In this document: positions 12,573 through 39,265 of the stretch, one piece after another
How positions within the stretch are numbered: the stretch's first letter is position 1
Layout: each line of letters starts with the position of its first letter
IMG/VR virus record: IMGVR_UViG_3300005577_000017
Coordinates: 1 to 39,265 of that record
Strand: one strand, 5' to 3'
Length of the DNA: 39,265 nucleotides
From: a virus
Notes under the pieces: generated by a model
What the model saw: only the letters and a program-made list of their open reading frames with translations
The model's database searches: none
What the model was told of the DNA's origin: nothing
Made by a program: the position numbers and the translations under genes

Positions 12573-13493
12573 ATGAAGACGTTATTCGAAGACAAAATCG
12601 ATCAATTTCTGGAATACCTTGAACGCCAGCGTTGCATGACGAAGCGCTCCGTCTATAATCACGGCCTTTATCTTCGCCGGACGGAAAGGGAATTGAAGAA
12701 GCCCCTGCTTAAAGTCCTGCGCGGATCCGAGATTGAAGCGGCTATTTGGGAAGCCTCGAAGCATAGAAAGCGGACGTGGAACGGCGGCAACATGAAAGAC
12801 GAGGGCGCCGGCTGGCGGAAACGGTGCGCGTCGAAGATCGTCAATTTCTACGTTTGGGCCTTCCAGGAACTTCACATCCAAAGAAACCCCTACCCGAAGA
12901 ACACCTTCAAATCCGTCTACACGCCGGAAGCCGACTTCCTCACCGAAGAAGAATACGAGCTTCTTATAACGTGCGACCGCCTGGACATCCGCGACATGAT
13001 GATGATCCGCTTTTTCTACGACACCGGATTCCGAATCAGCGAATCCGTCAACGTTCCGATCGAGGGGATAAATTGGGACACCAACATCGCTTCGGCCTAT
13101 TCCGTCAAGGAACACCGGATGAAGTATCAGCCATTTACGGACACGACGAAATATTGGATCCAGATCGTCGTCGGAATGCGCCGCGTCCGGAGTAAGTGGC
13201 TTTTCTGTCACCCTGAAACCGGCGAACAGTCAACCGACAAATCCCTGCGCGATCGCTTTGTCGAGATCTCGAAGATAGTCGGCTTCCGCGTCCATCCGCA
13301 TATGCTCCGGCACACCGTCGGCACACACATGACGAAGCACGTCGGGCTGGAACAGGCGTCAAAACACCTGGGGCATTCTTCGCTGGAAATGACGATGCAT
13401 TATGACCACGTTACCGCCGAGAGGAAAAAGGAAAACCAAAAGATCCTTGTCAGCGAAATTAAGACCAAAAAAAATATTTTAATCGGGTCTTGA
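12573..13493 (+). CDS. int: Tyrosine recombinase, phage integrase
   Basis: The product is 306 residues, usual for XerC/D-like phage integrases. It has an N-terminal SAM-like core-binding domain (about 1-105) and a C-terminal catalytic domain. Catalytic residues are visible: the first Arg in TGFRISE, the beta-hairpin Lys in SVKEHRMKY, HMLRHT with the His and second Arg, LGHSS with the third His, and the nucleophilic Tyr in MTMHYDH. The start ATG has GAAAGGGCG upstream. The attP region lies about 400 bases downstream, so it very likely integrates the phage at a tRNA-Glu gene. An excisionase-like protein is encoded at 24168. Confidence 0.92.
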   Translation: MKTLFEDKIDQFLEYLERQRCMTKRSVYNHGLYLRRTERELKKPLLKVLRGSEIEAAIWEASKHRKRTWNGGNMKDEGAGWRKRCASKIVNFYVWAFQELHIQRNPYPKNTFKSVYTPEADFLTEEEYELLITCDRLDIRDMMMIRFFYDTGFRISESVNVPIEGINWDTNIASAYSVKEHRMKYQPFTDTTKYWIQIVVGMRRVRSKWLFCHPETGEQSTDKSLRDRFVEISKIVGFRVHPHMLRHTVGTHMTKHVGLEQASKHLGHSSLEMTMHYDHVTAERKKENQKILVSEIKTKKNILIGS

Positions 13494-13837: not shown

Positions 13838-13954
13838 ACTCTAGGGCTTCGCGCCCAGCTTCCCATTTCCGCTTAATCGGCAACACGGGTTCGAATCCCC
13901 GTGGGGTCGCCATTTAAGCAGGAAACAACGAAGTAAACGCGAAAGCCCTAGAGT
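13838..13954 (+). promoter_or_regulatory. Long-range inverted repeat around attP, candidate anti-terminator
   Basis: The left arm 13838-13853 and right arm 13938-13954 are complementary over 16 pairs with one bulged base. The right arm is also most of the 5' strand of the terminator at 13943, so pairing with the left arm would prevent that terminator from forming. The arms enclose the attP core. On DNA they could instead be recombinase sites. The wider interval 13687-14069 holds no convincing gene. Confidence 0.5.
13878..13912 (+). other. attP: attP core: 3' end of a tRNA-Glu gene
   Basis: Bases 13890-13896 read TTCGAAT, a canonical T-loop, followed by a T-stem 3' strand (CCCCG), an acceptor 3' strand (TGGGGTC), discriminator G and CCA ending at 13912. 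The variable-loop region (CAACA) and overall pattern resemble bacterial tRNA-Glu, as in the E. coli gene ending CCCCTAGGGGACGCCA. The 5' half of a tRNA (GACCCCA and the D and anticodon arms) is absent upstream, so this is not a tRNA gene. A tRNA 3' fragment about 390 bases from a tyrosine integrase gene is the normal signature of attP, allowing integration to restore the host tRNA. Confidence 0.75.
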
Positions 13955-13986
13955 GGCCGAATGGCCTCTTTAGGGCTTGCTTTTTT
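13943..13986 (+). terminator. Rho-independent terminator after the regulator/attP region
   Basis: The stem runs AAGCCCTAGAGTGGCC (13943-13958), loop GAAT, then the complementary strand to 13978, with one T:T mismatch and one wobble, followed by GC and six T. It would end the transcript from the 13490 promoter. Confidence 0.75.
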
Positions 13987-13991
13987 GTATC

Positions 13992-14030
13992 GCCTCGAAG
14001 TGCCTTTCGGCGCTTCGGGGCTATTTTTTT
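13992..14030 (+). terminator. Second, tandem rho-independent terminator
   Basis: A 13-bp stem with wobbles (GCCTCGAAGTGCC, 13992-14004), loop TTTC, and its complement to 14021 is followed by TA and seven T. It lies only 5 bases after the first terminator, and 40 bases before the first early gene. Confidence 0.75.
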
Positions 14031-30163: not shown

Positions 30164-30961
30164 ATGCCTAAAGAATGGATGAAAGTTTTACCGGAAGAAT
30201 TGCAGAACGAACCCACGATCCAGAATTTCGAATCCGTCGCCGATGTCGTCAAAGGCTACAAAGAAGCGACGGTCAAGATCTCCCGCAAAGGCGTGATCGT
30301 TCCGCCCGAAGGCACGAAAGACGACGCGCCCGAAATGGCCGAATTCTACAAATCCCTCGGCCGGCCGGAAAAGCCCGAAGAATACGACTTGCCGGCGAAC
30401 CTTCTCGTTCTCCCCAACGGCCAGAAAGTGCCGCAGGAAGCCGTCGACGAATTCCGCAAGATGGCGCACGGCCTCGGCATGACGAAGAAGCAATTCCAGA
30501 AGGCTTTCGGATGGCGCATCGAGAAGACCATCAAAGAGGCCGAAGCCGCCAACGCCGCCGCGCTCAAAGACCGCCAGGAAACCGAAACCGCGCTCCGTGC
30601 GAAATTCGGCGCGAAATACAACGAGCGCATCCAGGGCATCCAGAAACTTATCTCCGCCTACGGTGAAGGCGCGACGCAGGAAGACATCAACGACACGCTG
30701 AAACGGCCTGGCATGGTCAATCTGCTTTCGAACATCCTCGACAATTTGAGCGAAGCGACGCTCGAACAGTTGGGCCACGTTCGCGGCGGGGAACTCACGC
30801 CGGACGAAGCGAAAGAAGAAATTCACCGCATCCGCACGGACAAAGATCATCCCCTCAATGCGGCGTTTCTCAATCCCAAGCTGGGAGAGAAACACAAGGA
30901 AGCGCGCGCCCGTGTCGAAAAGCTTTATGAAATGGCGCATCCTGGTAAAAAGAAAATATAG
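30164..30961 (+). CDS. Scaffolding protein
   Basis: The product is 265 residues, highly charged and helical. EEYDLPANL and the segment AVDEFRKMAHGLGMTKKQF are typical of podoviral capsid-assembly scaffolds. Position just before the capsid gene supports this. It guides prohead assembly and is lost on maturation. The stop is directly followed by the promoter for the capsid gene, so scaffold and capsid levels can be set separately. Confidence 0.8.
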   Translation: MPKEWMKVLPEELQNEPTIQNFESVADVVKGYKEATVKISRKGVIVPPEGTKDDAPEMAEFYKSLGRPEKPEEYDLPANLLVLPNGQKVPQEAVDEFRKMAHGLGMTKKQFQKAFGWRIEKTIKEAEAANAAALKDRQETETALRAKFGAKYNERIQGIQKLISAYGEGATQEDINDTLKRPGMVNLLSNILDNLSEATLEQLGHVRGGELTPDEAKEEIHRIRTDKDHPLNAAFLNPKLGEKHKEARARVEKLYEMAHPGKKKI

Positions 30962-30962
30962 G

Positions 30963-30991
30963 TTGACAAATAAATTAGTAAAAATTAATCT
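30963..30991 (+). promoter_or_regulatory. Strong promoter for the capsid gene
   Basis: A perfect -35 TTGACA (30963-30968), a 17-nt spacer and -10 TAATCT (30986-30991, five of six bases agreeing with TATAAT-type sites at key positions) start 2 bases after the scaffold stop. A GTTTTAATC element follows at 30993-31001. Confidence 0.7.
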
Positions 30992-31167
30992 TGTTTTAAT
31001 CGCTGTCTAATCTTTGACATGATTTAAAAATTCGTTTCGGACATCCGGCCTCTCGCCGATCCAACCAAAATGTCCTTGACGTTAGATCCTCCGATTAGAG
31101 GGGACATCCTAACGACCAAGAAAAGTCGTTAACGATGTGAACCCTTTTAACCGGAGGATTTTTATTT
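30992..31167 (+). promoter_or_regulatory. Structured capsid-gene leader with anti-Shine-Dalgarno
   Basis: The leader is about 170 nt, long for a phage gene. Bases 31086-31093 (ATCCTCCG) are perfectly complementary to the ribosome-binding site at 31152-31159 (CGGAGGAT), and the helix extends to 10 pairs with 31084-31085. The anti-SD lies in the loop of a hairpin closed by CGTTAG (31080-31085) and CTAACG (31109-31114). A second hairpin, AACGAC (31111-31116) with GTCGTT (31125-31130), shares bases with the first. So at least three mutually exclusive pairings can expose or hide the start site. Confidence 0.65.
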
Positions 31168-32025
31168 ATGGGCGACGAATCCACAATTTTTACGATTCAA
31201 TGGGGCGATGAACTCCGTCCCCTGGCACAGCAGATGCAGGAAAAGCTGGCCGGCACTTGCGAAGAAAAGCACGGCGTAGTCGGCGAACGCACCACGATGG
31301 AACAAGTCGCCGCGCGCTCCATGAAACGCCGCACCCAGCGTCATGCCCCCGTCGTAGCGACCGATCCGGATCTCCGTCGTCGCTGGATCACGATGGTGGA
31401 CTACGACGATTACGTTCTTTTCGACAAGCAGGATCAGCTTAAAACCCTGCTCGACCCGAAGAACGCCTTCAACCGTTCGCTTATCATGGGCGGAAACCGC
31501 TTGAAGGATCAGGTGCGTATCGACGCGCTCATCGCGGACACCTATTACGGCAAGGACGGCACGTCCACCGTTTCCATCTCCACCCCGATCGCCAACGGCG
31601 GCGTCGGCCTTACCCAGGCCAAGATGCGCCAGATCAACGAGAATTACGACACCAACAACGTTGATCCCGAGGAAGAAAAATTCCTCATCATCGGCCCGAA
31701 AGATCACACCGACCTTCTGAAACTCTCGGAAGTCGTGTCGAAGGATTTCAACGACCGCCCCGTTCTCGTTAAGGGCCGCGTGGAATTCTGGATGGGACAC
31801 AAGATCATCGTGTCCAATCTGCTTTCGACGACCGCCGGCGTGACGAAGTGCCTCTCGTATGTGCGTTCCGGCCTCGGCATCGCGTTTGCGATGGATTTCA
31901 ATTTGAGCGTCGACCAGCGCGTTGACCTCACCGGAAAGCCCTGGCAGGCTTCGGCCAACATTTCAGTAGGTGCGGCTCGCTTGGAAGAAACCAAAGTCCA
32001 AGAAGTCGACACTTACCACGCATAA
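31168..32025 (+). CDS. Major capsid protein
   Basis: The product is 285 residues, from ATG 31168 after GGAGG. It has an N-terminal TIQWGDELRPLAQQ segment, then FNRSLIMGGNRLKDQVRIDALIADTYYG split around the middle, and a C-terminal domain of HK97-fold type, as in BPP-1 Bbp17-like capsid proteins. Its place after the scaffold with a strong promoter and special leader supports the call. It is probably the most abundant virion protein. Confidence 0.85.
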   Translation: MGDESTIFTIQWGDELRPLAQQMQEKLAGTCEEKHGVVGERTTMEQVAARSMKRRTQRHAPVVATDPDLRRRWITMVDYDDYVLFDKQDQLKTLLDPKNAFNRSLIMGGNRLKDQVRIDALIADTYYGKDGTSTVSISTPIANGGVGLTQAKMRQINENYDTNNVDPEEEKFLIIGPKDHTDLLKLSEVVSKDFNDRPVLVKGRVEFWMGHKIIVSNLLSTTAGVTKCLSYVRSGLGIAFAMDFNLSVDQRVDLTGKPWQASANISVGAARLEETKVQEVDTYHA

Positions 32026-39058: not shown

Positions 39059-39265
39059 TTGAAAATAGAAAAATACGAATCGAAAACGAAAGCCAGACCG
39101 GAGCGCGCGTCCGCGCTCATGGACACGTCGTCGGTGACGGCCGTCGGCCGCGAAACAGCCGGCGCCGGCCAGGTGCTTGCGGACATCGGCGACACGATGA
39201 TCAAGGCCCAGGCGCTTCAAGAACACACCGAAGCCAACAACAAGGCCACGACCGCAACGCGGGAA
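39059..39265 (+). CDS. Internal virion protein B-like, N-terminal part (continues at position 1)
   Basis: The gene starts at TTG 39059 with GGGGA upstream and continues in frame through the end of the window into position 61 of the unit genome. The first 69 residues are encoded here (basic start KIEKYESKTKARPERASALM). See the entry at 1-1440 for the function. Confidence 0.75.
   Translation, partial: MKIEKYESKTKARPERASALMDTSSVTAVGRETAGAGQVLADIGDTMIKAQALQEHTEANNKATTATRE
39206..39265. repeat. Terminal redundancy, right copy
   Basis: These bases are identical to 1-60 of the window and mark circular closure of the assembly. Confidence 0.9.

Follow-up and report, generated by a model that had tools for sequence, protein, structure and literature searches.

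In the virus contig IMGVR_UViG_3300005577_000017, the Shine-Dalgarno (SD) sequence of the major capsid protein gene is predicted to be buried in a long hairpin of its own leader RNA. Both the fold and the compensatory changes seen in phages whose capsid genes are related give this sequestration strong support. The translational switch proposed in an initial annotation of the same DNA goes one step further and is supported indirectly, through competing hairpins here and in relatives: the block on capsid synthesis is probably a switch because the competing hairpin carries the anti-SD. With moderate confidence, we read this leader as an element that controls translation of the capsid gene in cis. 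Its predicted ground state buries the SD, and a mutually exclusive predicted hairpin at 31080-31114 holds the anti-SD instead.

Genome context of the capsid leader

The window analyzed here is the whole contig of 39,265 bases, which is probably a complete phage genome because a 60-base direct terminal repeat is found at its ends (1-60 and 39206-39265). Its head genes are of the HTVC010P/VP5 type and encode a connector (phrog_332), a capsid assembly protein, a capsid protein (phrog_3437), and the large terminase. Protein comparison placed the major capsid protein gene (285 aa, phrog_3437) at 31168-32025 on the plus strand; its product is about 33% identical to the capsid proteins of Pelagibacter phages HTVC010P and HTVC035P, and its best identity to any sequence found is about 36%. 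An AT-rich leader of 206 nt (30962-31167, plus strand) separates it from the capsid assembly gene located directly upstream (30164-30961). No close relative was found by capsid and connector protein among viral contigs or by capsid protein among species genomes, and a DNA search with the leader in phage records returned a sole match that was AT-rich and unrelated.

Two other features of this genome were noted along the way. A possible weak sigma-70-type promoter lies at 30963-30991 (TTGACA, 17-nt spacer, TAATCT), from which transcription would start near 31000. On the plus strand, 13941-14020 folds more stably than any other 80-nt stretch of the genome (-48 kcal/mol); it lies downstream of an integrase gene (12573-13493) and might represent a terminator or a structure of an attachment site.

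Predicted folds of the leader

The SD region CGGAGGAU (31152-31159, plus strand) contains a GGAGG core and lies at a 10-nt spacing from the AUG at 31168. As the initial annotation had observed, the anti-SD AUCCUCCG (31086-31093, plus strand) is its perfect 8-base complement, and the AUCCUCCG/CGGAGGAU pairing is extendable to 10 pairs, G-U included; among 20,000 dinucleotide-shuffled leaders, 0.69% contain an 8-nt anti-SD by chance. Both strands are engaged at the base of a predicted OFF hairpin at 31084-31161 (plus strand), which counts 31 pairs in full context, reaches -38.7 kcal/mol for the hairpin alone, and is predicted for the leader alone as well as in contexts of 115 to 401 bases. From the base upward, its helices are the SD helix, AUUAGAGGGG/CCCUUUUAA, ACAUC/GAUGU, and a 7-bp tip hairpin at 31110-31131 (UAACGAC/GUCGUUA, plus strand) with the loop CAAGAAAA, the tip being the likely nucleus of the fold.

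The stability of this structure was compared with that of shuffled sequences. The 199-nt segment 30992-31190 folds with a z score of -5.4, none of 200 shuffles being equally stable, and a duplex as strong as that of the SD region with the upstream leader (-28.2 kcal/mol) arises in 1 of 2,000 shuffles. A partition-function fold gave the opposite of an SD pairing near zero: the SD is predicted to be unpaired with a probability of about 0.001 only (~0.1% of the time), the lowest value among the 54 candidate starts of the phage (median, 0.45). At all modelled temperatures from 15 to 70°C, the core of the SD remains in paired form; the response to temperature that had been suggested earlier was thus rejected, and an RNA thermometer appears unlikely from the modelled fold.

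The alternative hairpin at 31080-31114 (plus strand), obtained by nascent fold prediction, has an outer stem CGUUAG/CUAACG and an inner stem CCUC/GAGG and contains the anti-SD. It and the OFF hairpin are mutually exclusive. It is weaker, at about -8 to -11 kcal/mol versus -38.7 for the OFF hairpin, and a 6-bp outer stem around the fixed anti-SD arises in 4.3% of shuffles. A further hairpin upstream (31039-31075, plus strand; predicted nascent fold), with an outer stem GGACAU/AUGUCC, an inner stem CGGC/GCCG, and a one-sided 3' internal loop AUCCAACCAAA, is compatible with the blocked and the alternative states. The two hairpins described in the initial annotation are indeed present, with arms 31080-31085/31109-31114 and 31111-31116/31125-31130, the latter being in fact of 7 pairs (31110-31116/31125-31131). 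Their assignment as competitors was only partly right because the second one belongs to the blocked state: hairpin 31080-31114 does compete with the OFF hairpin, whereas 31110-31131 is the tip of the OFF hairpin and not a competitor. Likewise, the anti-SD, which had been placed in a hairpin loop, is not mainly a loop element: it lies inside the 31080-31114 alternative, but the predicted ground state puts it at the base of the OFF hairpin.

The order in which these structures become available was followed in partial transcripts. For transcripts from 31036 to 31114-31126, the best fold has two separate hairpins, 31039-31075 and 31080-31114; in longer nascent chains, the tip hairpin appears from 31130 and the SD is closed by 31158. 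In the model, the SD block is favored by about 18 kcal/mol over the best fold that leaves the SD open and by about 22 kcal/mol over the fold with the alternative hairpin. With a block of this size, passive opening is therefore not expected, in line with the general knowledge of translation initiation. Since the alternative hairpin is more than 20 kcal/mol weaker in the complete RNA, any switch would have to be kinetic, binder dependent, or one way. The direct repeat GGACAUCC (plus strand, 31039-31046 and 31102-31109) was dropped as evidence, as 24% of shuffles have an 8-base direct repeat.

Capsid leaders of related phages

Base changes that preserve the SD block were sought in the capsid leaders of phages whose capsid genes are related to this one (about 30% identity). 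Compensation was seen in these distant relatives, and the search for close relatives returned none. In a swap test on 106 non-redundant leaders, each SD region was paired with its own upstream strand, with strands of other leaders, and with shuffles. The own strand beats at least 98% of the swapped partners in 16 of the 106 leaders and beats 95% of shuffles in 28 of them (about 5 expected), the window leader ranking third strongest. According to the leader folds, the SD is not strongly hidden in many relatives.

Two types of SD block were recognized. In the first (L130, L135, L191, L156, L195, L235, L256, and others), an upstream hairpin of the form CUC-loop-GAG is followed by ACAC or ACAA, and the entire apex of this hairpin can pair with the SD strand by full complementarity. 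In a set of 14 leaders of this L130 type, with pairs counted on hand-set gaps because MAFFT misplaced the loop gaps in A10, 141 of 149 cells are paired between apex and SD strand, none of 10,000 permutations matches the true partners, and both-sided changes occur at three loop positions (A-U, G-C, C-G, and U-A). In the second type (L004, L089, L091-L094, L204, L245, and others), the last hairpin has a 3' strand, usually GCC, that runs on into the anti-SD, so that this hairpin and the SD block exclude each other. Here too, own partners win in the swap test (0/20,000), a figure that is supportive only, since the strands were chosen by eye. The helix that hides the SD in relatives is often of just 9 to 12 pairs, formed around a second hairpin. 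The window hairpin 31080-31114 (CCUC-CGAUUA-GAGG, then GGACAU) resembles the L130 type by eye; a profile of that type run against the window did not find it.

Moreover, many relatives carry a structured, covarying RNA of ~100 nt directly 5' of the capsid gene, which is a finding in its own right. It was located in HTVC010P-like podoviruses (L002-L112 and L114-L193; e.g., L034:1349-1446, L003:1348-1450, and L093:1366-1461). In the 14 leaders of group C, it comprises a loop pseudoknot and two hairpins that have a one-sided internal loop (GG-GUA-GC opposite GU-CC) and flank two further hairpins; pairing holds in 94.8% of cells, both-sided changes affect 15 of the 26 pairs, and none of 500 shuffles is as good. 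A covariance model built from group C alone matches Pelagibacter-type leaders at the same place, and the joint alignments reach covariation scores of 0.58 and 0.56, versus 0.22 and 0.18 for shuffles. The last covariance model recovers leaders outside its building set (L060, L005, L058, L004, L080, L087, and L053; L091-L093) and, in a further set, 12 of 46 at E values below 0.002, all on the coding strand at the capsid leader. In Rfam 15, neither a match of the window at the gathering score nor a leader match in the capsid loci, L001 among them, at an E value of ≤1 was found; the capsid loci gave one sub-threshold isrP match, away from the leader.

By visual inspection, the capsid genes of Vibrio phages VP5, K292, and CKB-S2 are preceded by these same paired hairpins with internal loops (GGGUAGC or AUAA; approximate positions, L110:1380-1450, L111:1330-1400, and L112:1375-1450); the covariance model gave no match on these three leaders. 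In L118 (approximately 1376-1430), the loop CUCUUACAG of the first hairpin is a perfect 9-base complement of the downstream CUGUAAGAG, possibly forming a long pseudoknot in that leader.

The window itself was not assigned to this family of leader RNAs, as covariance models R1-R3 and the profile HMM miss it. The match at the capsid leader (30965-31064), which is not significant, scores 10.6 bits with the best of these models (E value of 0.9 over the genome); it ranks fifth over the genome, among chance-level matches, and its right position makes it a lead only. By eye, hairpins 31039-31075 and 31080-31114 look like the twin one-sided internal-loop hairpins that relatives carry upstream of the SD.

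Discussion

We propose a model in which the capsid leader would fold in two stages. In the nascent RNA, hairpins 31039-31075 and 31080-31114 would form first, the latter holding the anti-SD. Once about 31130 has been transcribed, the 7-bp tip hairpin would form and zip down over the SD, and the free message would therefore be OFF. Capsid production would then need either the nascent state to be held or the block to be opened. By analogy with the conserved internal-loop hairpins of relatives, the likeliest agent would be a phage protein or complex binding the upstream hairpins, and the likely purpose would be to time or limit capsid production relative to the scaffold and portal, whose genes lie just upstream. 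The capsid protein, the scaffold, and the phage cold-shock protein, all suggested in the initial annotation, would be candidate regulators, although no result obtained here speaks for the cold-shock protein.

Other explanations of the same fold were weighed. The host RNase III might cut the long hairpin and remove the anti-SD arm, thus freeing the SD, in which case the block would be opened by default in infected cells. The very stable fold, with 31 pairs of nearly continuous duplex, falls in the known range of phage RNase III processing sites. However, the SD of relatives is often hidden by a helix of only 9 to 12 pairs, which is little for RNase III, and processing would not require the competing hairpin in which the anti-SD is found. 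We consider a processing site unlikely.

Ribosome coupling would open the block in another way, by translation of a possible short upstream ORF (MSLTLDPPIRGDILTTKKSR, 31070-31132, plus strand) melting the 5' arm of the OFF hairpin. This frame of 20 codons, read from the sequence, starts with an ATG, spans the 5' arm, and ends shortly before the SD-bearing 3' arm. Nevertheless, it has no evident SD of its own, its start is within a predicted stem, and a frame of such length is likely to occur by chance, all of which makes coupling quite improbable. A similarly low probability is given to transcription attenuation, where the hairpin followed by UUUUUAUUU would be an intrinsic terminator and hairpin 31080-31114 the antiterminator. 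A U-rich run (31159-31167) does follow directly on the GC-rich base of the hairpin, but the stem is far longer than those of usual terminators, SD-hiding relatives mostly have no U run, and stopping transcription just 5' of the capsid gene would be costly. Finally, a chance or neutral stable hairpin on a capsid gene translated by another route, a reading helped by the covariance models and profile missing the window and by the lack of close relatives found, is the least credible, given the shuffle odds of about 1/2000 for the duplex, an SD accessibility that is the lowest in the genome, and the selection expected against a useless block of -38 kcal/mol on the most abundant virion protein.

Within our favored reading as a translational control element, a more specific and still tentative hypothesis, which we consider rather doubtful at this stage, could be that the leader belongs, as a divergent case, to an RNA family not yet described that precedes the capsid gene of many HTVC010P- and VP5-like podoviruses. 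The twin internal-loop hairpins would then be a binding site for a structural protein of the phage, so that translation of the capsid gene would respond by feedback to the state of capsid assembly.

Tailed phages have to coordinate the production of hundreds of capsid subunits with that of scaffold and portal. The covarying leader RNA and the compensating SD blocks occur 5' of capsid genes in marine, freshwater, and soil phages, and the fold of the present leader together with the compensating changes of relatives suggests a control of capsid production that has not been described so far. The question is therefore directly testable, including in the cultured phages HTVC010P and VP5. In the literature searched, from which subscription papers, including a 2017 list of 224 candidate RNAs, were mostly out of scope, we found no report of a capsid leader of this kind, nor of capsid synthesis in double-stranded DNA (dsDNA) phages being regulated by a structured mRNA.

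Several known systems share part of this architecture. As in SD-sequestering translational riboswitches of the adenine or preQ1 type, the anti-SD strand that hides the SD is predicted to be shared with an upstream helix, and the candidate ON and OFF folds are mutually exclusive; unlike them, the present leader has no identified ligand pocket and no Rfam match, and the gene that it precedes encodes a virion capsid protein and not a metabolic function. The MS2 coat-protein operator and other translational repressor sites of phages are likewise structured RNAs that cover the start of a virion or replication gene, and a virion protein might read the present structure too, whereas our case concerns a tailed dsDNA phage and has a far longer sequestering helix. 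RNase III-activated leaders (phage T7 sites and E. coli adhE) also hide a ribosome-binding site in a long hairpin; the leaders of the relatives described here differ from them by their competing hairpins and short SD helices. The control of the H. pylori aapA1 type I toxin mRNA by metastable structures (PMC6733600) comes close to the folding path proposed above. There, transient nascent hairpins reportedly precede a stable SD-blocking fold. That message is a toxin mRNA under antisense control, in contrast to a capsid gene for which an antisense RNA is not known. Altogether, control by SD blocking is itself known, and its use on the capsid gene of a tailed phage did not turn up in the literature searched.
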